A DNA stretch of 56,837 bases, taken from contig JALSIB010000036.1 in assembly GCA_026981855.1 (NCBI GenBank), positions 1 through 56,837 of the forward strand, written 5' to 3'. The stretch's first letter is position 1, and each line of letters opens with the position of its first letter. Below, in pieces: positions 7,210 to 22,889 of this stretch. Origin of the DNA: Methylothermaceae bacterium (lineage in GTDB: Bacteria; Pseudomonadota; Gammaproteobacteria; Methylococcales; Methylothermaceae). A program made the translations under genes and the position numbers. Below the pieces are notes generated by a model. It searched no databases, was not told the DNA's origin, and worked only from the letters and a program-made list of their open reading frames with translations.

Positions 7210-8532
7210 TCACTCCAGCATCCTTTGAGCCATCCGGGCGATCTGGTGCCAGTCGTAGGTGGAAATATCCTGGGCGTGGGCCAGATTGTTGCGCAGGGAC
7301 TGGAACTGCTTGATTTCCTTTTTGGCGGAATTCTTGGAGAGAAATCCCAGGGCGGTGAACAGTTCGTCATGCTGCATCACCAGCAGTCCCTTGTCGGCGA
7401 TCTGCAGGCAATCGACCAGATCCACGTTCTGGCCCGACCGGCGCCGCTGCCGTAACAGCGCGCGGGCCGCCTCCAGGCGGGGAGGCGGTAACAGGTCTTG
7501 CCACGAGTCGCCCGGGTAATATTCCCGAACCAGATCGGTCGCCTGCATTTCGATCAGGGTCAGGATGCCGAACAGCCACATGCGCATGTAAGGCTTGTTG
7601 ACGTCGCCCCGGCTGATGAATGCCTGCACCTGTCCGAACAGGGAGACAAAACAATGATCGTGACGGGTCAGGACGTGTATGACTTCCGCGAACCCCGCAT
7701 CGGCCGCGACCACTTGATCGGCGGTGAAGGGGCGTCCCGCCATGCCGCAGGTGCCGGCCTGCCGCAACTGCCCGAGCGTGACATAACCGGTGATTTCTCC
7801 CTCCATGCGCAGGGTCGCCACTTCGAGCCGTTTTTCCTCGAGCGTCTCGATGGCCTGACGGGCCGGCGTGTCGGCATCGAAGGAGAGGCGCACGGGCTCG
7901 GCGATGTCCTTGGCGCTGAAGACCTCATTGAAATGGTGTTTGAACTGGTTCCACAGCTGACGGTTCAGTTCGCCCGTCAGGTCAGGGCCGGTCTTCACCG
8001 CCCCCTGCCGGTCGAGGCGGGCGCGGCATTTCGCCAGGGTTTTGCGCGCCCGCTTCATCAGGGTGGGGTCCGCCTTGTCCAGGACTTCGAGCAGGGCGTC
8101 CATTTCCTCCAGAAAGGTTCCGGCGAAGCGGGAATCGTGGCGGGTGATGTCCTGACAGTTGTCGATCAAATCGGCCAGCTTGATGGTCTGGGCGCGGCCG
8201 CAGGCCTGAGCCAGATGTGCCCGGTCGATGGCCTTTCTTTCGGCGCGGTTGCCGTCGCTGGGTTTGCTGACGTCGGTCAGGGCGCGCACCAAGCCGGCGA
8301 CCTCCGGGCCGAACTCACGTTCTATGTCGTCGATGGTCGCCGGTGTGTCCTCGACTGCGTCGTGGAGCCAGGCGGCGGCGATCATCGCTTCGTCGTCGGT
8401 CACGCTGGCCGTGATTCTGGCCACCTCGCTGAGGTGGTCGGTGTAGGGCTTGCCGGTGTATTTGCGGCGATGATCGATGCGTTCGTGGGCCCGGGTGGCG
8501 AAATGGATGGCGCGTTGGATCAGCTCGGACAT
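7210..8532 (-). CDS. HD-domain (MESH1/SpoT-like) protein with CBS-like region and HEPN-like C-terminus
   Basis: The 440-residue product has three parts. Residues 1-150 resemble the small-alarmone hydrolase/SpoT HD domain: KYTGKPYTDH near 24-33, the HD pair at 57-58 inside WLHDAVEDT, and TIKLADLIDN further on. Residues about 205-330 look like a CBS pair, with GYVTLGQLR and then AFISRGDVNKPYMRMWLFG. The C-terminus holds RNNLAH at 414-419, which fits the R-x4-H motif of HEPN ribonucleases. From known families one infers a nucleotide-sensing phosphohydrolase joined to a possible RNase or RNA-binding module. No synthetase (RelA) domain is present. It lies 185 bases upstream of the efflux operon on the same strand and need not be part of it. 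Confidence 0.8.
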   Translation of the reverse strand: MSELIQRAIHFATRAHERIDHRRKYTGKPYTDHLSEVARITASVTDDEAMIAAAWLHDAVEDTPATIDDIEREFGPEVAGLVRALTDVSKPSDGNRAERKAIDRAHLAQACGRAQTIKLADLIDNCQDITRHDSRFAGTFLEEMDALLEVLDKADPTLMKRARKTLAKCRARLDRQGAVKTGPDLTGELNRQLWNQFKHHFNEVFSAKDIAEPVRLSFDADTPARQAIETLEEKRLEVATLRMEGEITGYVTLGQLRQAGTCGMAGRPFTADQVVAADAGFAEVIHVLTRHDHCFVSLFGQVQAFISRGDVNKPYMRMWLFGILTLIEMQATDLVREYYPGDSWQDLLPPPRLEAARALLRQRRRSGQNVDLVDCLQIADKGLLVMQHDELFTALGFLSKNSAKKEIKQFQSLRNNLAHAQDISTYDWHQIARMAQRMLE

Positions 8533-8592
8533 GGGTGTCGTGGTTTGGTTACCGTGAAAGTTTCATTGGTGCCGGGGCAGGGGATTCGTCTC

Positions 8593-8660
8593 TCGGGACG
8601 CAGTAAGTCCGTCCATGGAGGCTCGTAAACGGCCATCCAGGCCGTTTACGCCCTCGAGCC
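8593..8660. repeat. Dispersed palindromic intergenic repeat
   Basis: The core is a perfect 11-base inverted repeat, CGTAAACGGCC at 8624-8634 and its complement at 8640-8650, around the loop ATCCA. An outer GGCTCG/CGAGCC pair sits at 8620-8625 and 8655-8660. The preceding segment, CGGGACGC followed by GTCCATGGAGGCTCG, resembles the lead-in of a dispersed repeat that I recall from several gammaproteobacterial genomes. It sits between the divergent HD-domain gene and tamA, and may act as a transcriptional or mRNA-stability barrier. Only one copy was seen in this window. Confidence 0.6.
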
Positions 8661-8876
8661 GCCCCCTCCTCGGCGGTTGATTTTTTATCTTCCGGGGCGA
8701 AACGGCAATTCATGATGGTGATGGGGATCATATCAGAACTGAATTTGGGGTTCTGCAGGTGCTGTCTTTGCAAACGGGGCGATCATCCCGGTTCGTCCCT
8801 TCTTTCCCGATCGATGACATCCGCTTGTGGATTTGGCCGTAGAATAGCGGGCAAAACAGATTGCCGCTCTCGATTC
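8661..8876. other. Divergent intergenic region upstream of tamA
   Basis: This is the tamA-proximal part of the 344-base gap between two divergent genes. A reading frame is open here in phase with tamA, but the signal peptide and an ATG at 8877 mark the real start. TAGAAT at 8840-8845 could serve as a -10 element about 30 bases before tamA, but no convincing -35 element is spaced correctly. I see no small gene. Confidence 0.4.
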
Positions 8877-10613
8877 ATGCGCTTGTTCGTCGCTCCGTTT
8901 TTGTTGTTCATCAGTGTTATCGCTGCGGCGGAGAAGACCCCGGAAATCATCATCGAAAGCACCGAGCCCAGATTGACGGCCAATATTCGCAACCATCTGA
9001 CGATCGCCAGCGAGCCTTGCAATCGCTCTTTGCTCCAGCTCCAGTGGTTCCGGTCGAGAATTCCGCGGGAAGTGGATGCCGCGGCCAGAGCGCTGGGGTA
9101 CTACCATGCGAAGATCGAGAATTTGACCCTGGATTTGAAGGAGGACTGCTGGCAGTTGAAGTTGACGGTGGAACCAGGGCCCAGGGTCCGCGTGGTTTCC
9201 GTAAAGGTTCAGATTGTGGGCCAGGCCTTGGAGGATCCTTTTTTCGATGGGATTCTTGGAGCGCTTCCGGTCAAGCCCGGCGATCCCTTGAACCACGGGG
9301 AGTACGAGAAAACCAAGCTGCTGCTCAAGAACCTGGCCCTGAAGCGCGGTTATTTCGACGCCCGTTTCAGCAAGCACGAACTCAAGGTGGACGTGCGAAA
9401 GAACCAGGCGGCGATCGATCTGGAATTCGACTCGGGGCCACGTCATTACATCGGTCCGATCACCATCGACCAGAATATACTGGATCCCGATTTCGCCTAT
9501 CGTTACGTCAACGTGGCACCGGGGGCGCCTTATTCTTCCGAGGCGGTGGCCAATTTGTACCGGCGTTTTGCCGACAGCGGCCTTTTCCGCCATATCAGGA
9601 TCGATGCGAATCCGGTCGAGGGGCCGGTTCCCGAAGTCCCGATCTCGGTTTCCCTGATTGCCAAAAAACGCCACCGCTATGCCTTCGGGGTGGGGTTCGA
9701 CACCAATACCGGTCCCCGGGCCTCGTTCAATTATCTCAATCGTTATGTCAACCGGCGGGGGCATCAATTCAAGCTGGAGCTCAGATACACGCCGGTGGAG
9801 CCCCGGGCCACCGCGACCTACACGATTCCGCTTTGGGATCCCTTGCGGGAGAGCCTGCGGTTCAACGCGGGTTACCGGAGACGGGACGTGGACAGCTTCG
9901 TTTCCGATCAGGGAACCCTGAACATCGTTTTCACCCACCTGCGCCGGGACTGGGCCGAGACCTTGTCGCTCAATCTCAGGTATGAAAGTTCCCGGGTGGG
10001 CACCGGGGAAATCATTCAGTCATTGATATGGATGCCAACCCTGGGGTGGGCGCGGAAGGAGGCCGAAGTCAAGAACAGGCTGGTTCTTCATGGCCACAAA
10101 TTCGATTTCAAATTGAGGGGCGGGGTTTCCCTGCTGGGGAACAGCGCGCATTTCCTGAGGCTCCGGATGTTCGGCCGCTATGCTTTCAGCCTGCCGTGGA
10201 AAGCGAGAATCCATCACCGCTGGGAAATCGGCGCGCTTGCCACGCCGGCTTTCGGCAAACTGACTGCCGGAAACCGGTTCTTCACCGGTGGGGACAACAG
10301 TATTCGGGGGTACAAGTATCTCAGCCTCGGACCGCTCAACGACCAGGGTGAGGTGATCGGAGGCCGGTATCTGGGTGTCGTCAGTGTGGAATACGAACAG
10401 ACGGTTTATGGTGACTGGGGCGTGGCGCTGTTCGTGGATGGCGGCAATGCCTATAACGAACTCAAGTACCTGTGGCGCGACCGGAAATTTGGCGGGGGCG
10501 TCGGTTTGCGATGGCTTTCCCCGGTGGGGCTGGTCCGCCTGGATTTCGCCGTGCCTCTGAACCACCAGTACACCGATTTTCGCATTCATTTCGCCATCGG
10601 GCCGGTGTTGTGA
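8877..10613 (+). CDS. tamA: TamA, outer membrane subunit of the translocation and assembly module
   Basis: This 578-residue BamA-superfamily protein should insert outer membrane proteins together with TamB. A signal peptide (MRLFVAPFLLFISVIAAA) is followed by about three POTRA domains. The C-terminal 16-strand barrel region contains FFTGGDNSIRGY (the conserved L6-type RGY signature) and GGVGLRWLSPVGLVRLDFA near the end. The ATG at 8877 is preferred over earlier in-frame starts because the signal peptide begins there. Its stop overlaps the GTG of tamB by four bases, so the pair is translationally coupled. Length matches E. coli TamA (577 residues). Confidence 0.92.
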   Translation: MRLFVAPFLLFISVIAAAEKTPEIIIESTEPRLTANIRNHLTIASEPCNRSLLQLQWFRSRIPREVDAAARALGYYHAKIENLTLDLKEDCWQLKLTVEPGPRVRVVSVKVQIVGQALEDPFFDGILGALPVKPGDPLNHGEYEKTKLLLKNLALKRGYFDARFSKHELKVDVRKNQAAIDLEFDSGPRHYIGPITIDQNILDPDFAYRYVNVAPGAPYSSEAVANLYRRFADSGLFRHIRIDANPVEGPVPEVPISVSLIAKKRHRYAFGVGFDTNTGPRASFNYLNRYVNRRGHQFKLELRYTPVEPRATATYTIPLWDPLRESLRFNAGYRRRDVDSFVSDQGTLNIVFTHLRRDWAETLSLNLRYESSRVGTGEIIQSLIWMPTLGWARKEAEVKNRLVLHGHKFDFKLRGGVSLLGNSAHFLRLRMFGRYAFSLPWKARIHHRWEIGALATPAFGKLTAGNRFFTGGDNSIRGYKYLSLGPLNDQGEVIGGRYLGVVSVEYEQTVYGDWGVALFVDGGNAYNELKYLWRDRKFGGGVGLRWLSPVGLVRLDFAVPLNHQYTDFRIHFAIGPVL

Positions 10614-13600
10614 AAAGGTTGCCGGCCATTGTGTTTCTGACGGTTTTTGTTCTCGTTGCCGGGCTGTCGGCGCTGCTTGGCACGGAGACGGGAACCGCTC
10701 TGCTGTTCGGATTGGCGCAACGGCTGCATCCGCCGTTGAAGGTGCGATCCACCTCGGGCACCTTGCTGGGCTCGCTGGTGATTCACGAACTGAGCTACCG
10801 GAATGAGGGGGTTTCGCTGGCTGCCGAGCGTATCTCCCTTGTATGGCGTCCGTGGGATCTGAAACAGCGGCATCTCACCATCGAACGACTGGCGCTGGCG
10901 CACCCGCGGTTCGAATGGCGGGGTGGTGAAACGGAAAGCGGGCCGGTCGTGTTGCCCGCGGTCTTCATCCCCGCCACCATCGATCTCAAGCGGCTGAGTG
11001 TGCGGGATCTGGAAGTCGTCCTGCCCGATGCCGAACCTGTCACCCTCGACCAGTTGGATCTTGCCGCCGTGCTCGAAGGAGAACATCTCGAGCTGCGTCG
11101 TATCGGGGCCGTGATGGCCCGGCTGCATGCCCAGGGAAAAGGCGTCTTGAAATTGCAGGAAAACTGGCCGCTGACCGCCAGCGTCGATTGGCTGTATCGC
11201 GCCGACCGGCCCTGGAAAGGCAGGGCGGAACTTGCCGGCGACTTGATGGACACCCTGAAACTCGAACATCGCCTCGCAGCCCCTTTTGCCGTTGCCACCC
11301 ACGGCACGGTCGGCGCCCTGTTCGAGGAACCCCGATTCGATTTGCAGGGCTCGTGGAAGGAGGCCGGCTGGCCTCTGACGGGGGACAAGGAATGGACCAG
11401 CCCCCAGGGCACTTACCGGGTTCGGGGCCGGATCGACGACTACCGGGTGGAAATCCATACCCGGCTTTCCGGTATCCACCTGCCGCCGACCGAACTGAGT
11501 CTTCGGGGAAAAGGGCGTGCCACCGGGATTTTCCTGCAGCCATTGCTTGCCGAGGGGCCCGCCGGCCATCTCGAGGCGACGGGCGAATTGCGCTGGCGTC
11601 CGAGCCTTGTCTGGAACCTGCGCTTGCAGGGAAAGGATCTCGATCCCGCACCGTTTCAGCCGCAGTGGCCGGGCGCCCTGGCGCTGACGGCCCGGACTTC
11701 CGGCCGCTTGCAACCGGAACTGGCTGTGGAAGTGGAACTGCAAAAGCTGACCGGGGTGCTGCGGGATCAGCCGATCCGGGCCACCGGCAGATTTCATTAC
11801 CGGGGAAATGTCGTGAAAGCGGAGGGGGTCGGGCTGGAATGGGCGGGGAACCGGCTTCGGGTCGATGGCGAGGGAAACGGTCGCCGTATCGACCTGGAGT
11901 TCGAGCTGGATGCGCCGCACCTGGAACGTCTCGATCCGGGGCTGAAGGGGAATGTGAGTGGAGCGGGCAAGGTGACCGGTGACCTGAACCGCCCTCATCT
12001 CGACATCCAGCTCGAGGGCAGGCGGATCGTGTGGCGGGACCGGTTGAAGATTCGAGGCATCTCCGTGACCGCCCGTGGCCATCCCGAGGATCCTGCTTCA
12101 CAAGTGGAAATCGAGCTGGATCATTTGCAGTGGGCGCGGTGGCGTTTCGATCGCCTGATGTTGTCCGGCCGCGGCGGCCTTGCCGGGCACGAGATCCTGT
12201 TCGATGCCGAGGCCCCCCAGGGAAGCGTCGAGGTTCATGTCCAGGGGGGGATTGCAAAGGATGGCAAGTCCCATTGGGAAGGGGAAATCCGGCGGTTGCC
12301 GCTGGCCCTTCTCGAGCCTGTGCTCCCCCATGCGTTGTCCGCCAGCGGGAATCTGGTCGCCCGGTTTTTCTACCGCCAATCTTCCCGGCGGCGCGAAGCG
12401 GAACTGGAGCTGGGGTTCAGCGGCGGCGCGTTTTCCACCGTCATGGCCGATGGCGAGACGTTGACCCTCCCGCTCGATCAGGGCGAAGGGGAGGTGAAGC
12501 TGGACGATCAGAACCTTTATCTTTCGTTCAATCTGCCTTTTGCCGGGTATGGTTGGGGCAAGGGTGAATTGATGACGGATCTTGAGACCCACCTGTTGAA
12601 GGGCAGGTCACGGCTGCGGATCACCCGGTTGGAGATGATTCAGGTGTTCGTGCCTCAATTGAACGAGGTGAAGGGTTCGGCGGAGGGAGAGGTGGTTCTC
12701 CTGGGGTCGTGGGAGCATCCCAAAATCCAGGGAAAACTGGCTGTCACCGATGCCAGTGCCGAGGTGCCCGCGGCCGGTCTTCGCTTGCAGGCGATTCAAT
12801 TGCAGGCGGCCACGCGCCCTGACGCCACGATCGCCTTTCAGGGGCAGGCGCTTTCCGGGCCGGGAAAGATAGCGTTGCACGGAAACGTCGCTTTGAGCCC
12901 GGAAGTTTCCCTGTCCATGCGGATCGAAGGAGATCGTTTCCTGGCCACCGATCTTCCCCGGGCGAAAGTGATCGTGTCGCCGGCATTGGATCTGACCGCC
13001 AGCAGCCAATCAGTCGAGATCCGCGGGAACATTCAGGTGCCCGAAGCCAAAATCACCCTCAAAACGTCCCTGCTGCCCGACCAGCAGCCGGATATGGTTT
13101 CCGTTTCTCCCGACGAGGTGATCGTCGGACGCCCCCAGGCCCCCCCGAAGACCCGGCTGAATGTTTCGGCCGATGTGCTTCTGACCCTGGGGGACGAGGT
13201 GTTTTTCAAGGGATATGGGGTCGACAGCCAGCTTCGGGGGGAGTTGAGACTGCGGAGCTGGAAGGATATGCCCAAGGCGGAAGGGGTGGTCGAAGTGCTC
13301 AAGGGAACCTTCGCCGCCTATGGGCAGAAGCTGCATATCACCAAGGGGGAAATCATTTTCAGCGGTCCCGTGGACAATCCCGCCCTGGACATTGAAGTGG
13401 AGCGGCGTTTCCGCCGGGAAAAGATCACCGTCACCCTGGAGATCAGTGGATTTGCCCAGGAGCCGGCGATTCACGTGTCAAGCGATCCTTCCATGCCGGA
13501 AGACGAAGCCCTGTCCTATCTTGTGACGGGCCGCTCGTTTCGCGGCGGGGCCGCCGCCACATCGACCGGTTCCATGGAAAAACAGCTCACCGGCGCGCTC

Positions 13601-13849
13601 AGCTCGCTTGGCGTCAGCTATCTCAAGAAGTGGGGCGTGGACGAGTACGCGGAGGTGGAATACGAGGAGGGATTCGTCATGCTGGGGCGGCACCTCACGC
13701 CCGATCTGTACGTGGGGTACGCCGTCGATGTCTTCGACGGGCTGGGCGAGGCGGTGGTCCGCTACAACCTGACCGAATATCTGACCCTCGAAGGCAGGTA
13801 CGGTGAAAGCCAAAGCGGGGATCTTTATTACACCCTCGAGACCGAGTGA
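10610..13849 (+). CDS. tamB: TamB, inner-membrane-anchored beta-helical partner of TamA
   Basis: The 1079-residue product should bridge inner and outer membranes as a long hydrophobic groove, helping outer membrane protein assembly or phospholipid traffic. The N-terminal helix (LPAIVFLTVFVLVAGLSALL) is followed by repetitive beta-rich sequence. The C-terminal DUF490 domain includes PALDIEVERRF, DEALSYLVTGR and GRHLTPDLYVGYAVD, ending YNLTEYLTLEGRYG. The start is GTG at 10610, giving a GTGA overlap with tamA. An earlier in-frame ATG at 10472 lies inside tamA and would bury the membrane anchor. It is somewhat shorter than E. coli TamB (1259 residues). Confidence 0.92.
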   Translation: MKRLPAIVFLTVFVLVAGLSALLGTETGTALLFGLAQRLHPPLKVRSTSGTLLGSLVIHELSYRNEGVSLAAERISLVWRPWDLKQRHLTIERLALAHPRFEWRGGETESGPVVLPAVFIPATIDLKRLSVRDLEVVLPDAEPVTLDQLDLAAVLEGEHLELRRIGAVMARLHAQGKGVLKLQENWPLTASVDWLYRADRPWKGRAELAGDLMDTLKLEHRLAAPFAVATHGTVGALFEEPRFDLQGSWKEAGWPLTGDKEWTSPQGTYRVRGRIDDYRVEIHTRLSGIHLPPTELSLRGKGRATGIFLQPLLAEGPAGHLEATGELRWRPSLVWNLRLQGKDLDPAPFQPQWPGALALTARTSGRLQPELAVEVELQKLTGVLRDQPIRATGRFHYRGNVVKAEGVGLEWAGNRLRVDGEGNGRRIDLEFELDAPHLERLDPGLKGNVSGAGKVTGDLNRPHLDIQLEGRRIVWRDRLKIRGISVTARGHPEDPASQVEIELDHLQWARWRFDRLMLSGRGGLAGHEILFDAEAPQGSVEVHVQGGIAKDGKSHWEGEIRRLPLALLEPVLPHALSASGNLVARFFYRQSSRRREAELELGFSGGAFSTVMADGETLTLPLDQGEGEVKLDDQNLYLSFNLPFAGYGWGKGELMTDLETHLLKGRSRLRITRLEMIQVFVPQLNEVKGSAEGEVVLLGSWEHPKIQGKLAVTDASAEVPAAGLRLQAIQLQAATRPDATIAFQGQALSGPGKIALHGNVALSPEVSLSMRIEGDRFLATDLPRAKVIVSPALDLTASSQSVEIRGNIQVPEAKITLKTSLLPDQQPDMVSVSPDEVIVGRPQAPPKTRLNVSADVLLTLGDEVFFKGYGVDSQLRGELRLRSWKDMPKAEGVVEVLKGTFAAYGQKLHITKGEIIFSGPVDNPALDIEVERRFRREKITVTLEISGFAQEPAIHVSSDPSMPEDEALSYLVTGRSFRGGAAATSTGSMEKQLTGALSSLGVSYLKKWGVDEYAEVEYEEGFVMLGRHLTPDLYVGYAVDVFDGLGEAVVRYNLTEYLTLEGRYGESQSGDLYYTLETE

Positions 13850-14015
13850 GTTCCGTGGCCCCGCTGTCTTCCCCGAAACCGGTTCGATGCCTGGATGGAA
13901 ATTCCTCGGCCAAGGCCCGTGTCAGTCTGACGGGCGTGGTTTCGAATACAGGCGCGAGGCGGCTGACGAGGGAAGCCGGAGCCACGGCAGGAAGCTTGGC
14001 CGCTTCGGGGAAAGA

Positions 14016-14717
14016 TTAGTGATTCCCCTGCTCCCGGGTGGCGGTGCGTTCCAGCTCGGCCACGAAATCCGGCGCCAGCGCGAGTGCGTTGGATAACCGC
14101 CGCAGATAGGCGCGTTCTTGATCGTTGGCCTGGTCGATGATCATGCGCGATACCAGATAAACTTCCGCCGCCGCTTCTTGCGAGTCGGTTTCGGCGGCGA
14201 TGCCCGCGGCGTCTGCGGGGGCGTTTAACTGCTCTTCGATAAACGCCAACATCTCTTCGTTCACGCCGAGGCTTTTGGCCTGCCCGGAGATTTTTTCCCG
14301 CTCCTGGTCGTCGATGTGACCGTCCGCCCTGGCGGCGGCGATCATGGCTTTGAGAAGCAGCCGGCTGCGTTTTTCCGCTTCGTCGCCGCTCAGCTTGTCG
14401 ACCGGCGTTCCGGGCTCGACGGGCTTGGTGGATTTGACGCCGTGCCAGCTCTGATAAGTTTGATAAGCCAGTCCGCCCAAAGCCGCCAAACCGCCCAGTT
14501 TCGCCGCCAGGGTGGTGAGATTGCGGCCGCTTTTGGTTCCGAGCAGCAGCGCCAGCAGACCTGCCGCGGCGGCGCCCTTGGCGGCACCTTTCAGGGCCGC
14601 TTCCCGCTCCGGGCCTTCGGCGGGGATGTCGGCTTTTTCTTCCACCCATTGCCGGCCCTTCCTGGCCCATTCCTGACCGGATTGCAGTAGTTGATCCAGA
14701 AGTTTGCTCGTTTCCAT
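14016..14717 (-). CDS. DUF533 (YebE-like, TerB-like fold) protein
   Basis: The 233-residue product matches the DUF533/YebE family. An N-terminal helical region is followed by a glycine/alanine-rich hydrophobic segment (GAAKGAAAAGLLALLLGT, then LGGLAALGGLAYQTYQSW). The C-terminal TerB-like helical domain has KAMIAAARADGHIDDQEREK, the usual acidic signature. The start is ATG at 14717 because GAGGAG sits six bases upstream. The open frame extends to 14816 without comparable support. The role is unknown; family members are inner-membrane-associated and often stress-induced. It is convergent with tamB, with about 165 bases between them. Confidence 0.87.
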   Translation of the reverse strand: METSKLLDQLLQSGQEWARKGRQWVEEKADIPAEGPEREAALKGAAKGAAAAGLLALLLGTKSGRNLTTLAAKLGGLAALGGLAYQTYQSWHGVKSTKPVEPGTPVDKLSGDEAEKRSRLLLKAMIAAARADGHIDDQEREKISGQAKSLGVNEEMLAFIEEQLNAPADAAGIAAETDSQEAAAEVYLVSRMIIDQANDQERAYLRRLSNALALAPDFVAELERTATREQGNH

Positions 14718-15149
14718 CGTGTTCTCCTCAAGTCTTTGGGTTTTTTGGAAATCCCGTGTTTTTCGAATGGATCGATGCCGGCGCGCGGCTGTCGGGTGAA
14801 CGATGGTGAACATCATGAAGCCCTCGGCGCCGGGATGGCCAGATTAACACAGGTTGTGTGACCGCTCAGCCGCTGCGGAACGATTTCCGTGCCGGCGTGG
14901 AGGCGCCGCTTCCCTTCCCCGTCCCGCGTTGCGGTGCGTTTCGCCCGGGCGTGCGAAAGAGAGCCCGCAAGGCTTTCGCTTTCGGCATACGGGCAATGGG
15001 GGACGGGTTCCGGGCTTGCTTCCCTGGCCCTGCTTTTTCGGTTTTGGGAGCGCGCGGCGCAAGCGGTGTCTGCGAAGGGGGTTGAAAGAGGCGGCGTATC
15101 TTGTTGAAATCGGCCCTGGAATGCGCGTTTAAATTCGTCCGGCATTTTC
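14718..15149. other. Divergent intergenic region, no gene seen
   Basis: This 432-base gap lies between the divergent DUF533 gene and the three-gene envelope cluster. Several short open frames cross it on both strands, but none has a ribosome site, a recognisable product or a consistent start. It must hold the promoters for both sides, and I cannot pick out convincing -35/-10 pairs. It is GC-rich with no long inverted repeat. Confidence 0.4.
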
Positions 15150-16616
15150 GTGAGCATGAAAAAATCGGGAAGCAACCGAATCCGGTGGCCGGTTTCGGTG
15201 TTCGTGGCCGTTTTTCTGTTTTTGGCCTCCGGCTGTTCAAGCATGAATCAGCATGGCGGCATGGCGACCGGCGCCGCTGTGGGAGCGGGCATCGGCGCGG
15301 CGATCGGCGCGCTCGCCTGCAAGGGGGATCCGAAATGCATCGCCATAGGGTCCGCCGCCGGCGCGGTCACGGGCATGGGGCTGGGTTACCTGTGGGATCG
15401 CCGCCAGGCCGAGCTTCGCAGGATTGCCGGGCGGCAACGGCTCAACGTCGCGATCCAGCCCGTCAGTACCTACAACGCCGGGAACAAGACGAACGGGGTG
15501 GAGGTCGCCATCCATGAGCGCGGGATGTTCGATCCCGGCTCGGCGACCCTCAATCCGTCCGCGAGGCGAAAGCTTATGGCGCTGGCCGCGGCCTACCGTG
15601 ACAGTCCGCAGCGTCTGCTCGTCATCGGGCACACCGATGCGACCGGCCCGGAGCGGGCAAATCTGAAGCTTTCCGAACGGCGGGCCAGAACGGTCGCCCT
15701 GCTGCTTGCCGGTCAGGGGATCCCCACCGGCCGGATTTTCTATCAGGGCGCGGGGGAATCCCAGCCGGTCGCGAGCAACGATACCCCCGCAGGGCGGGCA
15801 AAAAACCGGCGGGTGGAAATCGTCGAACTGGACAGTACCGAATCCATTGCCGCATACAGCCTGGAGCGCCGGTCGGACAGCCGTTATCTCGCCCATTCAA
15901 GCAGAACCGCCCGGGAAAAAGCCGGGAACCGCGGCGGGGCGAAGCGCCCCGGCAAGGCGGCCGGTTCCTCGCCCCCTTCTCCAATCGCCGCTGGTAGGCG
16001 GCGGGAGCGGAAGCCCGCGGTCGATTTCGGCGGCGGCCCGGCCCGGCGGGACATCGTCCCCATTCTGGCGGCGTTGGGCGGGCTGCGGGCGGAAACCGGC
16101 GGTTCGGGCTTTGTCATTTCCACCGCCCATGCTTCCGAATCCCCGCCGGCACTGACGCCTTGCTATCTCGACAACCCCCGGGAGGCCGGGGCGGTGAAGA
16201 ATCTTCAAAGCGGGGCCGCGCTCGATCTGTCCGCCTACCGGCAGTCCGATTATTTTCCGGGCTTGAACGGTTATCCTTTTCTGGCGAGCGCCAATGGCCA
16301 CCTGTTGGCCATCAGGGGGTTGCGGGTGCTCGATCAATCCGCTGAGGTCGTGGGCGCTCCGCAATTGCTGATCTACAGGGACTATGACTCCCGCCACGCG
16401 CAAAACGCCGACTTTCGCCTTCCCGTCTCCATCGAGACGTATCGGGGGCGGGACGGCCTTTTGCTGCGGGGGTATTTCGATCCGCGCTCGCCTGTGGAAT
16501 GTATGGATATGGTCGTCGCCCGGCGGCGGATAAAGGCAAAGGCCGGCATCCTTTATTATGATGCCGGAACCGGCCTGTACGAGAAAGAGGTTTTGTTCCG
16601 ACGAATGACGCGATAG
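15150..16616 (+). CDS. OmpA-family lipoprotein with a novel C-terminal domain
   Basis: The first gene of a three-gene cluster encodes 488 residues. A signal ends in LASGC (Cys29), indicating a lipoprotein. A glycine-zipper segment follows (about 42-56, GAAVGAGIGAAIGAL), then an OmpA peptidoglycan-binding domain at roughly 110-230 with GHTDATGPERANLKLSERRA. A basic, low-complexity linker leads to about 150 residues that I do not recognise, holding two cysteines (CYLDNP and ECMDMV). OmpA domains of this type bind peptidoglycan, so the protein probably ties the outer membrane to the wall and presents the extra domain. GTG at 15150 or ATG two codons later may start translation. The next gene begins ten bases after the stop. 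Confidence 0.85.
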   Translation: MSMKKSGSNRIRWPVSVFVAVFLFLASGCSSMNQHGGMATGAAVGAGIGAAIGALACKGDPKCIAIGSAAGAVTGMGLGYLWDRRQAELRRIAGRQRLNVAIQPVSTYNAGNKTNGVEVAIHERGMFDPGSATLNPSARRKLMALAAAYRDSPQRLLVIGHTDATGPERANLKLSERRARTVALLLAGQGIPTGRIFYQGAGESQPVASNDTPAGRAKNRRVEIVELDSTESIAAYSLERRSDSRYLAHSSRTAREKAGNRGGAKRPGKAAGSSPPSPIAAGRRRERKPAVDFGGGPARRDIVPILAALGGLRAETGGSGFVISTAHASESPPALTPCYLDNPREAGAVKNLQSGAALDLSAYRQSDYFPGLNGYPFLASANGHLLAIRGLRVLDQSAEVVGAPQLLIYRDYDSRHAQNADFRLPVSIETYRGRDGLLLRGYFDPRSPVECMDMVVARRRIKAKAGILYYDAGTGLYEKEVLFRRMTR

Positions 16617-16626
16617 GAGGGGGAGT

Positions 16627-18156
16627 GTGGACGATCTGCTTGCGTTGCTGAATGAATACAGGATCATCGTGGGCGCTCTGCTGACCGTGTTTTTGACCGC
16701 CGTGGCGCTGTGGAAGTGGTGGGACCGGGTTTCGTTCTGGTGGTTGCGGGTGATGGTGCATCTGCCGGTGATCGGCAAGATCGCCCGTCTGTCGCGCAAC
16801 CTCGATTATGACCGGCGCACGGGGTGGTTTCAGTCGGAGCAGGAGATTTGCGCCGCATTCCTGCCCTATTATGAAAGTGCCCGGCCGGATTCACGCTATT
16901 TCGACGACTGCCTGAGCTATTTACGCAAAGTGCAGGAGCTGGGGCGCAATCCGCTTTCCTTGTGGGGGTGGTTGTTGCTCGCCGTCCTGGTTTTTCTCGA
17001 GGCGCTGGGTTTCTCGTATGTCCTGGCCGGTTATACCATTCCCGGCGCCAGCGAGGCGCTGCAAGAGAAAGGGGCCCTCGCCATCGCATTTCTGATCGCC
17101 ACCATCATGGTGTTTTTCACCCACTGGGCGGGGCATGAGCTGCACCACAACACCCTGGTGAAGAAAGTCCGGACGTGGTACACCACCGGCGGCGAAACCC
17201 GCCATCCCATGGTGCCCAATACCCGGGTTTCACTGGACAACGAGCATGTGGACGATGACGAGCCGGCGTGGCGGCAGCTCCTCAACCGCCTGCCCGCCAA
17301 CGCCAGCGTGACGCCCGGTTACAAGGTCACGGGTTTGACCCTCTTCCTGATCCTCTTCATCGCTGTCGGCGCCACCTATGTTCGGGGCCAGGTGCTGGAA
17401 ACAACATTGATCGAACAGCACAATCCGGAAAACGCCGTCGATTATCCGGGCCCCTATGACGGCATCGGCGTGCCGCCGGAAATCAGGCGGGATCAGGAGA
17501 AGGTCGATGCCGAAATCAAGGAGGAGACCGAGGAAAGCGAGCGCAAGGGGGGGTGGGCGACCTTCATCATCCTGGCCATCGTTTTCGTTTTCTTGCAGAT
17601 CATCGGCATATTGACCGGAATGAAGACAGGATTCGCCGGCAAGGAGTCGGCGAAAGCCCACCGGGTGATCGGTCATTTCGGCAATGGAGACGAGTTCGTC
17701 GCGTTTCACGAGCGCAAACGCAACCGGGTCGCCCGGCTGGCGCAGATGAGCCTCGGAAAATTGCAGGGCAGGATGCTCGACCGGGCGGCCAGCGTGCATA
17801 TAGACGGCAAGGCCCACGAGCTGCTCCGGCACAGCGCGGAAAGGGATTTCCACACGTATGTGCGTGACAGGTCGAGGGCCGAGAAGCGGGCGGACGATCC
17901 GGTGACGCCCGTGGCCGGCGAGCCGGCTTCGCCCGGGGGTGATGACGGGACGGAGCCGGATGAAGCGCAAGTCCTGGAATGGATGGAGAAATTCGGTTGG
18001 GATCGGGCGCGGACCCTCCGCTTCCTCAGGGACAACATGCCGGTGAGGCCGGGCAGGCGGGCGTTGACGGAAGAGGAGGCGCTGGAGCTGTTGCTGAACT
18101 CGGCGGCGAACAGGCCGGAACCAGGCGCCGGTGAAGACAGGGGGGAAGGGGTGTGA
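16627..18156 (+). CDS. Polytopic inner membrane protein of unknown function
   Basis: I do not recognise this 509-residue protein. About five membrane segments are visible: near 12-30, 118-140, 150-172 (running into THWAGHELHHN), 236-256 and 312-334. An amphipathic acidic loop lies between segments four and five. The C-terminal third is hydrophilic and ends with a helical, UBA-like looking stretch (QVLEWMEKFGWDRARTLRFL). The GTG at 16627 has AGGAGGGG just upstream. It follows the OmpA lipoprotein by ten bases and overlaps the next gene by four, so the three proteins probably work together in the envelope. The histidine-rich HELHHN segment could bind a metal, but that is only a guess. Confidence 0.8.
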   Translation: MDDLLALLNEYRIIVGALLTVFLTAVALWKWWDRVSFWWLRVMVHLPVIGKIARLSRNLDYDRRTGWFQSEQEICAAFLPYYESARPDSRYFDDCLSYLRKVQELGRNPLSLWGWLLLAVLVFLEALGFSYVLAGYTIPGASEALQEKGALAIAFLIATIMVFFTHWAGHELHHNTLVKKVRTWYTTGGETRHPMVPNTRVSLDNEHVDDDEPAWRQLLNRLPANASVTPGYKVTGLTLFLILFIAVGATYVRGQVLETTLIEQHNPENAVDYPGPYDGIGVPPEIRRDQEKVDAEIKEETEESERKGGWATFIILAIVFVFLQIIGILTGMKTGFAGKESAKAHRVIGHFGNGDEFVAFHERKRNRVARLAQMSLGKLQGRMLDRAASVHIDGKAHELLRHSAERDFHTYVRDRSRAEKRADDPVTPVAGEPASPGGDDGTEPDEAQVLEWMEKFGWDRARTLRFLRDNMPVRPGRRALTEEEALELLLNSAANRPEPGAGEDRGEGV

Positions 18157-19019
18157 GCGGCAAGGGGGGAAGTATTGGCCGGGCGTTTATCGGATTTCTT
18201 GTCATGGCCGTTTTCTGGGGCGAGGGAAGCTCGAACGCGTTGCCCCCCGATGCGGCCAGGGACGACTTTCCTTCCTGTTACGGCTTGATCGACCGCCCGG
18301 ATCTGGCGCAGGCGCCGCCCGGGCGGGCGCTGTTCATCATCGTCGACCAGACCGTGCGGCTCGATCCGGAACTCAGGCGCGGCGTCCATTTGAAGGTTCA
18401 GCGCTTCCTCCAGCCGGGGGACCGGATTACCCTGCTGACTTTCAGCGCGAACGCCAAAGGCCGCTACGCAAGCATGCCGTTGACCGGGCGGTTGGACCCG
18501 CCGCTGGATGAAAAGGTCCGCTACCATGTCAGTGTGGCGAAACTGAAAAAATTCGACCGCTGCATGAAAAAACAATGGCGATACGTGCGCCGGACCATCG
18601 ACACCCGGCTCGAAGCCGCCTTCGGGCAGGCCGCTTCGAACCTGCCCAGAACCGAGTTGGCGGGCTCCCTCGCCCGTTTCGGTGAAACGGTGATCGCCCG
18701 CTCGCGGGCCGCTAGAAAAGTGGTTCTCCTCGTGTCCGACATGTTCGAGAATTCCGACATCGTGACTTTCTATTCCCGCGGTGCCGTCAGGCCCATCGAC
18801 ATCGATCATGCGATCGGCAGGATAAAAAGCGCGGGCCTGTACGCCGACTGGCGGGGAGCCGGTGTTTATGTCATCGGCGCGGGTTTCATCGGCGGGGGCG
18901 GGTACCGCAGTGAAAAGCTTCTGCGTAACCTGCGGCGTTTCTGGGAGGCGTACCTTCGTTTGTCCAACGCGGAACTTGCAGGATGGGGCGCTCCGGAGCT
19001 TCTGGTCGAACTGCGATAG
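18153..19019 (+). CDS. Exported VWA-like protein
   Basis: The 288-residue product begins with a hydrophobic segment (about 10-24) that looks like a signal peptide or anchor, so it is probably periplasmic. The rest resembles a von Willebrand A fold: ALFIIVDQTVR as the first strand, DRITLLTFSANAKG, a central helix, KVVLLVSDMFENSD, and GVYVIGAGF. The metal site is degenerate, because DxSxS is replaced by DQTVR. Two cysteines (in PSCYG and DRCMKK) could form a disulfide. The start GTG overlaps the previous stop by four bases. VWA proteins usually mediate protein contacts, and its partners are most likely the two genes upstream. The assignment rests on pattern, not on a search. Confidence 0.75.
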   Translation: MSGKGGSIGRAFIGFLVMAVFWGEGSSNALPPDAARDDFPSCYGLIDRPDLAQAPPGRALFIIVDQTVRLDPELRRGVHLKVQRFLQPGDRITLLTFSANAKGRYASMPLTGRLDPPLDEKVRYHVSVAKLKKFDRCMKKQWRYVRRTIDTRLEAAFGQAASNLPRTELAGSLARFGETVIARSRAARKVVLLVSDMFENSDIVTFYSRGAVRPIDIDHAIGRIKSAGLYADWRGAGVYVIGAGFIGGGGYRSEKLLRNLRRFWEAYLRLSNAELAGWGAPELLVELR

Positions 19020-19133
19020 AACTTGAGTTTTATGGTTTCCGCATATTGATGTGGAAATTTGGAAGGCGCCGGGTTACCTTGTAAGCTGCTTCCAACGGCC
19101 AGCCGGAGATCCGGCAAGGAGAGCGCGGGAACC

Positions 19134-20477
19134 ATGACCGAAATCATCCGCAGCCTGCTCAAGAATACCCGGGTTGTCGAAATCGTCGGCGATACCATTC
19201 GGGTCAGGGCTCAGGGGATCGCCTTCGGTGAAATGGCGCTGGTGGAGAATATCGACGGGGAGAAATCCCTGGCCAGGGTGGTGGATCTGGAAGGCGATCT
19301 GGTCAGTCTCCAGGTCTATGCCGGTGGCAAGGGGCTTTCCACCGACGCCACCGTCAGCTTTCTGGGGCACCCCCCTGATGTGGTGTATTCCGAGCACATC
19401 CTGGGGCGGATTTTCCGCGGCTCCGGCGAACCCATCGACAACGGCCCCGACCTTTCCATGGATCCCCGTATTCCCGTGGATGGCCCCACGGTCAATCCGG
19501 TGATGCGGGTGATGCCCAACAAGATGATCGAAACCCAGGTGCCGATGATCGATCTGTTCAATTGCCTGGTGGAGAGTCAGAAGATCCCGATCTTCTCGGT
19601 GGCGGGAGAGCCCTACAATGAACTGCTGGCCCGCATCGGTTTCCAGGCCGACGCCGATGTCCTGGTGTTCGGCGGCATGGGGCTGGTGTTCGACGACTAT
19701 CATTTCTTCCGCGCCGCCTTCGAGGAGCACGGGGTTTTCCATCGAACCGTGATGTTCGTCAACCAGGCTTCCGATCCCCTGGTGGAACGGTTGATGATTC
19801 CTGATATGGCGTTGGCGGTGGCGGAGAAGATGGCGGTGGAGGAAAACAAGCGGGTACTGGTGCTGCTCACCGACATGACCGCTTTCGCCGACGCCATGAA
19901 GGAACTGGGGGTGGCTCAGGAGCGGATTCCCGCGATCCGCGGTTACATGGGCGATCTCTATACCCAGCTGGCACGCCGCTATGAGAAGGCGTGCGATTTC
20001 AAGGGCGCCGGTTCGTTGACCATCCTGTCCGTCACCACCATGCCCGGCGGCGATGTCACCCATCCCGTGCCCGACAATACCGGCTACATCACCGAGGGGC
20101 AGTTTTATCTCCACGACGAGGTCATCGATCCTTTCGGTTCCTTGTCCCGCCTCAAGCAGCACGTGGTCGGCAAGGCCACCCGCGAGGATCACGGCCAGAT
20201 CATGAACACCATGATCCGCTTCTACTCCGGTGCGGTCGAAGCGGAAAAGAAGCAGACCATGGCCTTCGAACTGTCGGCCTTCGACGAGAAGCTGCTCAAG
20301 TTCGGGCGGTTGTTCAGAAACCGGTTCATGGATATCCGGGTGTCGCTCCCCCTGACCGAGGCACTCGACCTGTGCTGGCAGACCCTGGCCGAGTGTTTCG
20401 AGCCCGAGGAACTGCTGATGAAGCAGACCCTGATCGAAAAATATTACCCCGGGAAGGCGCCGCGGCAGGCGGGGTGA
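19134..20477 (+). CDS. atpB: V/A-type ATPase subunit B
   Basis: This 447-residue subunit forms the non-catalytic half of the A3B3 ring of a rotary V/A-type ATPase. Diagnostic segments include GRIFRGSGEPIDNGP, MIETQVPMIDLFNCLVESQKIPIFSVAGEPYNELLARIG, and LLTDMTAFADAMKE followed by RGYMGDLYTQLARRYEKA. As expected for B, there is no catalytic P-loop. ATG at 19134 is chosen because the family N-terminus begins there; GGAG lies upstream. It is the first gene of the operon, which runs B-D-I-K-E-DUF2764-A. About 115 bases separate it from the VWA gene, leaving room for a promoter. Confidence 0.94.
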   Translation: MTEIIRSLLKNTRVVEIVGDTIRVRAQGIAFGEMALVENIDGEKSLARVVDLEGDLVSLQVYAGGKGLSTDATVSFLGHPPDVVYSEHILGRIFRGSGEPIDNGPDLSMDPRIPVDGPTVNPVMRVMPNKMIETQVPMIDLFNCLVESQKIPIFSVAGEPYNELLARIGFQADADVLVFGGMGLVFDDYHFFRAAFEEHGVFHRTVMFVNQASDPLVERLMIPDMALAVAEKMAVEENKRVLVLLTDMTAFADAMKELGVAQERIPAIRGYMGDLYTQLARRYEKACDFKGAGSLTILSVTTMPGGDVTHPVPDNTGYITEGQFYLHDEVIDPFGSLSRLKQHVVGKATREDHGQIMNTMIRFYSGAVEAEKKQTMAFELSAFDEKLLKFGRLFRNRFMDIRVSLPLTEALDLCWQTLAECFEPEELLMKQTLIEKYYPGKAPRQAG

Positions 20478-20484
20478 GGCGGCG

Positions 20485-21102
20485 GTGGCGAAACTGAAAC
20501 TGTCCAAGCACGCCATGCACGCGCAGCAGGAACAGCTCAGGCTGTATCAGCGCCTGCTGCCGTCCCTGGATCTCAAGCGCCGCCAGTTGAGCGTGGAGGT
20601 GCAGAAGGCCGAAGCCGAAGCGGCCGCCATCGACGATCAGATGGCGGCGTTGCAACGGCGCATCGGCCAGGAATTGCCGATGCTGGCCGACCCCGACTTC
20701 CGCCTGAACGATTTGGTGACCCTGAAGGATTATCGGCTGGGGGAGCAAAATGTCGTCGGTGTCCGCCTGCCCCGGCTCGAGCGGCTGGAATACCAGGTGG
20801 CGGACTATTCCAGATTCGCCACCCCGCCCTGGGTGGATGTTCTGGTATCCCGGTTGAAACAGGCGATCGAGCTCAAGCTGCGGGCCGAAATCGCCACCCA
20901 ACGGGTCGGGATTCTGCGCCGGGAAGTCAGGCGGATCACCCAGCGGGTCAACCTGTTCGACAAGGTATTGATTCCCACCGCGAAGGAGAACATCAAGAAG
21001 ATCCGCATCTATCTGGACGAGGCCGAGCGCTCGGCGGTGATCATCTCGAAACTGGCCAAGCGCAAGCAGGTGGCCAGGCGGACGGGGGCGGCCGGGCGAT
21101 GA
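20485..21102 (+). CDS. atpD: V/A-type ATPase subunit D (central stalk)
   Basis: The 205-residue coiled-coil protein should be the rotor shaft linking the A3B3 head to the proteolipid ring. It starts MAKLKLSKHAM, continues with a long helix, and returns with a second helix ending in KRKQVARR. The region NLFDKVLIPTAKENIKKIRIYLDEAERSA is the usual C-terminal signature of subunit D. GTG at 20485 begins seven bases after the atpB stop. It overlaps the atpI start by four bases. Confidence 0.92.
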   Translation: MAKLKLSKHAMHAQQEQLRLYQRLLPSLDLKRRQLSVEVQKAEAEAAAIDDQMAALQRRIGQELPMLADPDFRLNDLVTLKDYRLGEQNVVGVRLPRLERLEYQVADYSRFATPPWVDVLVSRLKQAIELKLRAEIATQRVGILRREVRRITQRVNLFDKVLIPTAKENIKKIRIYLDEAERSAVIISKLAKRKQVARRTGAAGR

Positions 21103-22889
21103 GTATCGTTGCGCTCAACAAGGTGACCTTGATCGGCCTGACGGCCGACAAGGAGCCCATGCTCGAGGATCTGCAGGCGTTGGGGTGCGTGGATCTCATT
21201 CCCCTTCGGCCGGAGCGGGAGGCGGGCGAACCCCAGCCGCCCCCCGCGGGAATCGAGGAGGCGTTGAAATTCCTGCGCGACTGTCCTTCGCGCCGCCGTC
21301 ATCAGGTGCGCGATCCCCATGGTTTCGATCCGGTCGAGGTGCAGCGGAAGGTGTTGGCGGTGCGCAAGCGGCTGCTCGACCTGGAAGAGGAGCGGGATTT
21401 TCTGTTGCGGCGGTTGCGGGATCTGGCGCCCTGGGGGGATTTCGAGTTTCCCAGCCTGGAGGAAATGGGGGGGTATCGTCTGTGGTTCTATGTGGTGCCT
21501 CACGCCGATCTGCCCAGGTTCCACCGCTTGCCGTACTATCAGGAGGTGGTCAGGCGGGACAACCGGTTCAGCTATCTGGTCTTGATTTCTCCCCACGAGC
21601 CCCGGGACACGCCGCTGCCCCGGGTGCATGTCGGCAACCGGCCACGCTGGGTGCTGCAACAGCGGCTGGACGAGGTGGAGCTGGCCATCGAGGATACCCA
21701 GGCAGAGCGCGCCTGGCTCACCCGGTGGTACGAACTGCTCAAGCGCAATCTCGCCTTCCTCAGAGATCGCGCCGCACTGGCGGCGGCCGGCCGCAAGGTG
21801 CTGCATCGCCGGCCGGTGGTGGCGTTGCAGGGGTGGGCGCCGGTGGAGCGGTTGCCGGCGTTGGCGGAGCAGGCCCGGGGGCGGCGGATGGTGTTCCAGG
21901 CCGAAGCGCCCCGTCGTGACGAGAATCCCCCCACCTTGCTGCGCAATCCGCCGGCGCTGGCGGCGGGTGAGGATCTGGTCAATTTCTACATGACCCCCGG
22001 CTATCACACCTGGGATCCATCGTCGATCGTCTTCGTCTCTTTCGCCCTCTTTTTCGCCATGATCCTGGCCGATGCCGGTTATGCCGCCTTGCTGGGGACG
22101 GGATTGCTGCTGGCGTGGCGGAAACTGGGGCGTTCGCGCGCCGGGCGCCGCTACCGGCCGTTGCTGGCATCGATCGTGGCGCTGTCGGTGGGTTACGGGA
22201 TGCTGGTGGGCAGTTATTTCGGCGCTTCGCCGCCTCCAGGCTCGTTCCTGCACCGGTTCCATGTGCTCGATATGGGCGATACCAACCTGATGATGGCGAT
22301 CTCGGTGCTGATCGGCTGTCTGCATATCATTCTCGCCAGTACGATGGATGCCTTGCGCCATCCCCGTTTGCGCGATGGCCTGGCTTCCATCGGGTGGGTT
22401 CTGATCGTCGTCGCCGGCTTGCTGGTGGTGTTGGGCGAAGGTTTCGGAATCCCCCTTCCCGCGCTGCTCCCCCTCGTCTTGCTGGGGGGGGGAATGGTGC
22501 TGGTGCTGGCCTGGACCGCTCCCGGCGAGCCGCCTGTCAAGCGGTTTCTCAAGGGGCTTCTGGGGCTGACCCACATCACCGGGGCCTTTGGCGACGTGCT
22601 CAGTTATCTTCGTCTGTTCGCGCTGGGGTTGGCGAGCGGTTCCCTGGCGACCCAGTTCAACCAGATGTCGGCCACGCTGGTTGAGTCGATGCCCGGAATC
22701 GGCCTTTTGATCGCTATTTTGGTGTTGATTCTGGGCCATGGGGTGAATCTGGCGCTGGGTCTGGCCAGTGGGGTGATCCATGGCCTGCGCCTGAATGTGA
22801 TCGAGTTCTTCAAATGGGGCCTGAAGGAGGAGGGGCGGCTGTTCAATCCCCTGAGGCGGAGCGACGAACGGGGCACTGGATTTCGGTAA
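21099..22889 (+). CDS. atpI: V/A-type ATPase subunit I (membrane stator)
   Basis: The 596-residue subunit I (the a-subunit equivalent) carries the ion half-channels. The N-terminal half is soluble and coiled-coil-rich. The C-terminal half has about seven membrane segments, including IVFVSFALFFAMILADAGYA, SIVALSVGYGMLVGSYFG and FGDVLSYLRLFALGLASGSLA, the last containing the conserved LSYLRLFALGLA motif with the essential Arg. The ending HGLRLNVIEFFKWG is also typical. The ATG start overlaps the atpD stop (ATGA). At just under 600 residues it is slightly shorter than many archaeal homologues. Confidence 0.93.
   Translation: MSIVALNKVTLIGLTADKEPMLEDLQALGCVDLIPLRPEREAGEPQPPPAGIEEALKFLRDCPSRRRHQVRDPHGFDPVEVQRKVLAVRKRLLDLEEERDFLLRRLRDLAPWGDFEFPSLEEMGGYRLWFYVVPHADLPRFHRLPYYQEVVRRDNRFSYLVLISPHEPRDTPLPRVHVGNRPRWVLQQRLDEVELAIEDTQAERAWLTRWYELLKRNLAFLRDRAALAAAGRKVLHRRPVVALQGWAPVERLPALAEQARGRRMVFQAEAPRRDENPPTLLRNPPALAAGEDLVNFYMTPGYHTWDPSSIVFVSFALFFAMILADAGYAALLGTGLLLAWRKLGRSRAGRRYRPLLASIVALSVGYGMLVGSYFGASPPPGSFLHRFHVLDMGDTNLMMAISVLIGCLHIILASTMDALRHPRLRDGLASIGWVLIVVAGLLVVLGEGFGIPLPALLPLVLLGGGMVLVLAWTAPGEPPVKRFLKGLLGLTHITGAFGDVLSYLRLFALGLASGSLATQFNQMSATLVESMPGIGLLIAILVLILGHGVNLALGLASGVIHGLRLNVIEFFKWGLKEEGRLFNPLRRSDERGTGFR

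Follow-up and report, generated by a model that had tools for sequence, protein, structure and literature searches.

The membrane complex of T6SS-iii, a type VI secretion system (T6SS) of Bacteroidota, is composed of TssN, TssQ, TssO, TssP and TssR (TssNQOPR); in the sections of PMC10781749 that deal with it, TssN is described with five helices plus a domain in the cytoplasm, and TssR as a lipoprotein with a vWA domain. The FtsZl1-VWA-OmpA operons are putative membrane-remodelling systems in which a tubulin relative is encoded together with VWA and OmpA proteins (PMC2875224, passages on these operons). In Vibrio, FlgO, FlgP and FlgT make up the flagellar H-ring (PMC7990780, section on the ring). 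Parts similar to these are found in a set of three genes, here called P1, P2 and P3, in a contig of 56,837 nucleotides from Methylothermaceae bacterium (GenBank assembly GCA_026981855.1, contig JALSIB010000036.1), which was analysed as a whole and is referred to as the window. The genes encode a predicted OmpA-domain lipoprotein, a membrane protein with five putative helices and an exported VWA-like protein. The three genes are conserved as a unit that moves between distantly related bacteria, and we consider it fairly likely, at a probability of about 0.6, that the trio is a single mobile operon encoding a self-contained trans-envelope complex.

Thirty-one loci with P2 were examined, comprising all 23 genome loci, three of which were found via P3, and 8 of the 20 matching records in a plasmid collection; the other 12 plasmid records (10 Pantoea, one Paraburkholderia and one Caballeronia) lie outside this count. 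P1, P2 and P3 follow each other in this order on a single strand at 29 of the 31 loci, which shows that the neighbourhood is not due to chance and extends across genomes a clustering that a sequence-only reading had described from the window. At L091, the contig edge falls inside P2. In the plasmid collection, P2 and P3 match the identical 20 records, and the C-terminal domain of P1 is found in 16, every one of them among those 20. The same domain occurs in 4 of the 369 genomes of the class samples, which are the same four that carry the trio among the P3 matches, so that in both data sets it is seen solely where the trio is present. Independent occurrence of the genes, which would speak against a cluster, is thus not observed for the C-terminal domain of P1 and is limited to one clade of P3, present in 10 of the 369 class genomes. 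The pairwise distances in the three gene trees are correlated at 0.76–0.80, a value reached by none of 2000 permutations, and at 0.80–0.87 if the three most divergent loci are left out.

The unit is sporadic in its distribution. The genomes with P2 number 5 out of 299 at phylum level, 4 out of 151 in the order, 7 out of 300 in G225's order and 7 out of 217 in that of G222; all four counts take in either the centre genome or one previously known to be positive. The hosts belong to two phyla, being Campylobacterota and alpha-, beta- and gammaproteobacteria. Among the plasmid records are an Aliarcobacter (Campylobacterota) plasmid, in which the trio is located among insertion sequence (IS) elements, an Acidiphilium plasmid typed as conjugative, large Pantoea plasmids and Burkholderiales replicons. 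An Aeromonas record of 4.9 Mb that is labelled as a plasmid is probably a chromosome.

Rooted at their midpoints, the three gene trees are mostly concordant with one another and discordant with taxonomy. L015, which comes from the window's own order, is placed apart from the window in the combined tree and in all three single trees, grouping with Pantoea and the genus of G222 in the combined tree (support 100) and with Aeromonas copies in the P3 tree (87). Burkholderiales copies are split over three places in the combined tree and the P2 tree and make up a single group in the P3 tree (93), which also holds Acidiphilium and L047, a locus from the gamma class; the alphaproteobacterial plasmid copy and L047 fall among Burkholderiales, and the Campylobacterota plasmid copy falls among gamma copies. 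Within the window's own genus, P2 is present in 2 of the 10 genomes listed. When window positions 8000–21500 are compared with G332, a member of this genus that also carries the trio, the shared DNA is confined to 15196–19021, the trio alone (86.6% identity over 3859 columns). Five congeners, among them G332, resemble the window at the ATPase locus from 19129–19525 onward, and nothing upstream of it in these five matches the window, TamB and DUF533 included, so that the junction alone does not prove insertion of the trio.

Neighbouring genes, taken as up to two per side at 29 of the 31 loci (99 of 110 scanned), vary from locus to locus. No general recurring neighbour appears among the matches listed for these 99, which cover 25 of 77 Pfam families; those that do recur are LpxR, near 2 of the 31 loci, LysR regulators (5 of 99) and IS66 (3 of 99). 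Pattern-based scans of viral contigs for P3 and P2 yielded no relative and a tblastn search of phages with P3 none, in searches that reach close relatives, and Pantoea P2-P3 DNA has no match in E. coli genomes. The trio is a mobile unit that travels between distantly related bacteria.

Along P1, a lipobox and a weak glycine zipper are followed by an OmpA domain, a linker and then a C-terminal domain that belongs to no known family. The sequence-only reading had already described an OmpA lipoprotein with an unfamiliar C-terminal domain. The lipobox cysteine (Cys27, counted from the ATG at 15156) is present in 29 of 30 loci, L045 having a gap, and the residue at +2 is never Asp in those 29. Under the Lol sorting rule, a +2 residue other than Asp directs a lipoprotein to the outer membrane, and P1 is therefore probably a lipoprotein of the outer membrane. 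The OmpA domain retains Asp161 in 28 of 30 and Arg176 in 30 of 30 loci; the conserved Asp and Arg of such domains have a role in wall binding, and P1 has both the residues and the lipobox that characterize OmpA-like lipoproteins. Its first ~225 residues resemble NCBIfam NF053611 (E 3e-47; 161 bits, under the model cut-off of 175) and have the same layout as the YiaD-type glycine-zipper OmpA lipoproteins of that family, from which P1 differs by its additional linker and C-terminal domain. The last ~170 residues have no convincing match in Pfam, NCBIfam or PDB sequences. The best match, to stretches of capsid proteins (PDB, E 0.01), was judged to be due to chance, and PDB sequence searches with the trio proteins gave weak, short matches only. 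An A-x-A motif at 16125–16133 joins the variable linker to the C-terminal domain (Ala326 in 30 of 30 loci, Ala324 in 29 of 30); by eye, it resembles a signal-peptidase site, but without a clear hydrophobic stretch. A zinc-ribbon-like motif was seen, also by eye, ahead of the P1 lipobox at L092:3048-4700.

P2 is predicted to be a membrane protein with five helices and a long tail, as previously described: a crude hydropathy scan gives five hydrophobic stretches, at approximately residues 14–32, 116–134, 150–168, 234–252 and 311–329, followed by a C-terminal tail of ~180 residues. The same kind of scan gives 4 to 8 peaks each in 19 relatives. The charges next to the helices give a weak indication that helix 1 is oriented from outward to inward and that the tail is cytoplasmic. 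Gly50, Glu71, Glu125 and Arg253 are kept in 31 of 31 loci. The tail is variable among relatives, and P2 from the Aliarcobacter plasmid carries zinc ribbons (L019:11989-13593; Pfam E 2e-13). The window P2 has no significant Pfam or NCBIfam match and no convincing PDB sequence match, and family-wide scans of P2 and P3 relatives gave scattered matches only.

P3 has a signal-like N-terminus and, by eye, the appearance of an exported protein. The window P3 has no significant match in Pfam or NCBIfam, VWA included, and no convincing PDB sequence match; only 2 of 31 P3 relatives are matched by Pfam VWA (E 0.017), and a single member matches a methanogenesis marker (E 1e-5). Profile–profile comparison supports the VWA relation: hhalign of 31 P3 relatives with 14 VWA_2 sequences gave 95.3% probability (E 2e-8 for a single comparison, 136 columns), compared to 0.5% and 0.2% for the P1 and P2 alignments used as controls. 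The trio P3 sequences gave 95.3% and the solo P3 sequences, introduced below, 85.9%. The metal-site residues Asp65, Thr/Ser67, Ser/Thr167 and Asp196 are each present in 30 of 30 proteins. On these profile and residue patterns, P3 is classed as a divergent VWA protein with four of the five metal-site residues, in agreement with the VWA-like fold proposed for it earlier.

The paired cysteines that had been pointed out in the two exported proteins proved to be conserved. The window P3 has exactly two, Cys42 and Cys137, while the window P1 has Cys336 and Cys449 in its C-terminal domain in addition to the lipobox Cys and Cys55/61. Every locus that encodes both proteins has Cys336/449 and Cys42/137, apart from L017 and L045, where none of the four is found. 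Since L017 and L045 are sister loci in the trees, this joint absence counts as one event. The conserved pairs would fit one disulfide in each of P1 and P3.

On a comparison of parts, the nearest analogue of the trio is the T6SS-iii membrane complex. Each includes an inner-membrane protein of five helices (predicted for P2) that extends into the cytoplasm, a lipoprotein and a vWA domain, and each is associated, or predicted to be associated, with the envelope. However, the T6SS-iii complex consists of five proteins, belongs to a contractile T6SS and has its vWA domain within the lipoprotein, and no OmpA domain is mentioned in the cited sections of PMC10781749. Neither TssO, TssP, TssQ nor T6SS tail genes appear among the neighbour matches listed (29 loci, 25 of 77 Pfam families), a search that covered the neighbours and not the rest of the genomes; TssN is likewise absent from the matches listed for 19 P2 members (25 of 81 families), a family scan rather than a direct comparison of P2 with TssN. 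FtsZl1 operons also encode VWA and OmpA-domain proteins in one predicted operon with membrane proteins, but are centred on a cytoplasmic tubulin relative, often include a kinase and a GTPase and mostly have an intact DxSxS motif, according to the relevant passages of PMC2875224. No FtsZl1, kinase or GTPase was recognised among the neighbour matches listed for the 29 loci, FtsZl1 having been looked for beside the trio and not across the genomes. FlgO, FlgP and FlgT of the H-ring, with MotY of the T-ring, resemble the trio in uniting outer-membrane lipoproteins with periplasmic and peptidoglycan-binding proteins in a periplasmic scaffold, but no P2-like protein is named in the cited part of PMC7990780. 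The trio lacks the tested defining features of T6SS-iii, FtsZl1 operons and the H-ring, and the earlier statement that the set matches no described system held up, as neither profile searches nor searches of the open-access literature connected the trio to a named one.

The unit, its spread, the domain types and the invariant residues were all computed directly, and from them a mechanism may be proposed. The lipid of P1 would anchor it in the outer membrane, and its OmpA domain would grip the peptidoglycan, as conserved motifs suggest. To judge from hydropathy and charge, P2 would be an inner-membrane protein with a cytoplasmic tail. P3 would be a periplasmic VWA adaptor that most likely links the disulfide-bearing C-terminal domain of P1 to the loops of P2. 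The complex most likely works as a wall-anchored scaffold that would pass the state of the envelope to, or draw energy from, the inner-membrane part. The invariance of Glu125 and Arg253, combined with a variable tail that has zinc ribbons in one plasmid copy, is what would be seen if the cytoplasmic partner alone differed by host. Glu125 in helix 2 would suit ion coupling; since no profile relation of P2 to MotA/ExbB was found, an envelope-state scaffold is favoured and ion coupling is left as a rival. The earlier interpretation is supported in part: the unit, the VWA assignment, the OmpA-domain residues of P1 and the cysteine pairs hold, whereas a joint span of both membranes and the wall would depend on the proposed assembly. 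It included neither the mobility of the set nor the P3 kin at a flagellar locus. A more specific version, in which the trio is a new class of mobile, plasmid-borne trans-envelope machine whose Glu-bearing P2 acts via P3 on wall-anchored P1, and solo P3 is an unrecognised component of the H-ring region in some Gammaproteobacteria, is possible but less likely than not.

Several observations weigh against the reading of the trio as one operon for one complex. L016 has P2 and P3 with another open reading frame (ORF) upstream instead of P1. Simple co-inheritance also yields correlated tree distances, several deep nodes are weak (down to 36 in the combined tree), and the single-gene trees disagree in places. 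Among the matches listed for the neighbours of the trio (25 of 77 Pfam families), none stands out as a conserved partner. At position 69, the second Ser of the DxSxS motif is found in just 2 of 30 P3 proteins; the full DxSxS...T...D site is therefore absent and the VWA is a divergent one. AlphaFold models made from two-sequence alignments were unusable, with a mean predicted local distance difference test (pLDDT) score of 33.7 for P3 and 42.9 for P2, so that the topology of P2 rests on hydropathy. Finally, that P1, P2 and P3 associate, and that energy or a signal passes between them, is what we infer from the sequences.

The P3 matches in the class samples bring in flagella. The search matched 18 of the 369 genomes, of which 4 have the trio, 10 have a solo P3 without adjoining P1 or P2 (one of them, L061, has a contig end upstream) and 4 have weak or partial matches. 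The ten solo P3 genes form a single clade (support 100). When the tree is rooted on two weak relatives, this clade falls within the trio P3 (support 89), so that solo P3 may derive from a trio, or the root may be misplaced. FlgT and flagellin are found in all ten genomes, with flgT no more than 2 kb from solo P3 in eight (L046, L048–L051 and L054–L056) and on another contig in two. Three of these loci, checked by Pfam, have LPP20 (flgP-type) and FlgT neighbours, and a PilZ protein is present at one. The solo P3-family gene near flgT is a candidate for an unrecognised flagellar-ring gene. The trio itself might then be a flagellar accessory, an extra H-ring-like scaffold in the periplasm or outer membrane of the motor, with P3 in the role that its solo kin may have beside flgT and flgP. 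Flagellin was found in 9 of the 11 trio genomes tested for flagellar genes (out of 23, and including G437, which lacks P1), and by eye a flagellar-rod-like ORF adjoins the trio on the opposite strand in a Burkholderiales genome (L014:5639-6022) and a chemotaxis receptor gene adjoins it at L020. However, the other two genomes have no flagellin match, and FlgT is missing from 10 of the 11 and is ~1.3 Mb from the trio in the remaining one, so that linkage to flgT/flgP and restriction to flagellated cells, as expected of an H-ring part, are not seen. In six same-genus genomes, flagellin is present while P2 is not matched, and no recurrent flagellar family is present among the neighbour matches listed (25 of 77 Pfam families). 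P3 kin sit at a flagellar-ring locus, yet most of the trio genomes tested lack FlgT; the trio is thus not tied to flagella, and a flagellar accessory is unlikely.

MotAB, ExbBD, TolQR-Pal and the Zorya proteins ZorAB all combine an OmpA wall anchor with a multi-helix membrane protein; in Zorya, ZorA adjoins ZorB and further Zor genes are present. The trio differs from all of these in that P2 shows no profile similarity to MotA_ExbB, P1 is a putative lipoprotein and there is a third, VWA-like protein. An energised motor of the MotAB/ExbBD/TolQR-Pal type, with P2 as a proton channel and P1 as the wall anchor, would account for the intramembrane Glu125, invariant in 31 of 31 loci, and for the OmpA-domain lipoprotein as its partner. 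However, hhalign of P2 with a MotA_ExbB profile of 29 sequences gave 0.2%, in a comparison run without a positive control, and Pfam MotA_ExbB matches neither the window P2 nor appears among the families listed for 19 P2 members. The B subunits of such motors have one helix with a membrane Asp, unlike the lipoprotein P1, and a motor of this type is quite unlikely. Sporadic distribution, as in the P2 frequencies given above, and mobility are also features expected of an anti-phage defence module, for example a Zorya-like one that senses the envelope, and P1 scores on ZorB models. That score is limited to the OmpA domain, though, and P2 has no ZorA match. PADLOC gave nothing for P3, a weak methyltransferase (E 0.045) for the window P2 and one weak match (E 5e-4) over 19 P2 members. 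Among the 99 neighbours, no Zor gene was matched and each PADLOC family matched a single neighbour, the families being HNH/restriction-type, Cas2 and two with weak scores. The viral contigs and phages, searched at the reach noted above, held no copy, and a defence role is very unlikely. That the three genes are unrelated and adjacent by chance, as the ten genomes with P3 kin but no adjoining P1 or P2 might suggest, is hardly credible: it is contradicted by the 29 of 31 loci that retain the gene order in two phyla and among differing neighbours. The reading of the trio as one mobile operon for a trans-envelope complex is accordingly preferred.

The window is an entire contig from an assembly of 2.75 Mb. 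In the ORF list, P1 and P2 are separated by 10 bases and P2 and P3 overlap by 4 bases, confirming the layout of three consecutive genes that had been noted previously (Table 1). The trio has a GC content of 0.631 compared to 0.612 across the window, which amounts to no shift. There are no conspicuous repeats flanking the trio, the longest word common to both sides being 9 bases, and the region around it has no match in Rfam at the gathering threshold. A V/A-type ATPase cluster starts at 19134, ~115 bases 3' of P3, and two adjacent ExbB/MotA-family matches are located elsewhere in the window, at 32573–33567.

Table 1. Features of the three-gene set in the window.
Feature	Position	Strand	Remarks
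P1 gene	15150..16616	+	488 aa; GTG start, ATG at 15156 possible
P1 glycine zipper	15258..15389	+	Pfam E 5e-6, just under cut-off
P1 OmpA domain	15525..15809	+	Pfam E 6e-22; Asp161, Arg176
P1 C-terminal domain	16107..16613	+	conserved, no known family; Cys336/Cys449; A-x-A near start
P2 gene	16627..18156	+	509 aa; predicted membrane protein without known family
P2 helix 2 (predicted)	16972..17028	+	Glu125 (codon 16999-17001), invariant, 31/31 loci
P2 helix 3 (predicted)	17074..17130	+	His166 in 27/31 loci; Glu in remaining 4
P2 helix 4 (predicted)	17326..17385	+	ends in invariant Arg253, 31/31 loci
P2 helix 5 (predicted)	17557..17613	+	followed by tail
P3 gene	18153..19019	+	288 aa; exported VWA-like protein
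P3 partial metal site	Asp65 18345-18347, Thr67, Thr167, Asp196 18738-18740	+	four of five residues

Other genes were seen close to the trio at single loci or in a few lineages. LpxR (PF09982) is located within ~1 kb 3' of the trio in two distant genomes (L012:5545-6606 and L017:10101-11099). A Cas2-like ORF comes right after the trio in G332 (L018:4186-4467) and is taken as the sole Cas2-matching neighbour of the 99. The gene just 3' of P3 at L104:11564-13300 has a zinc-ribbon-like motif by eye. Lineage-specific extra genes overlap the trio by a few bases, at the P3 end (L090:7213-8133) and at the P1 start (L023:9511-10224). A distant P3-like exported protein overlaps a conserved 421-aa gene at L057:8350-10373 and L058:8245-10271, in two genomes without a flagellin match, and this arrangement is possibly another two-gene envelope pair.

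OmpA and VWA domains are common, but the set is unnamed as a system, and keyword and accession searches of the open-access literature found no description of the trio; its function, once established, could place it in a known kind. In the 6 of the 8 fetched records that are annotated at the trio, the genes read 'OmpA family protein', 'hypothetical protein', 'hypothetical protein', with P2 once given as 'zinc ribbon domain-containing protein'. A known task for the trio would explain this recurring annotation and extend the accessory envelope complexes by a further class. In the flagellar field, a 2021 review states, in its part on the rings, that the composition of the outer O-ring is not yet known (PMC7990780), and whether a component is missing near the flagellar H-ring could be tested directly on the solo P3 clade.

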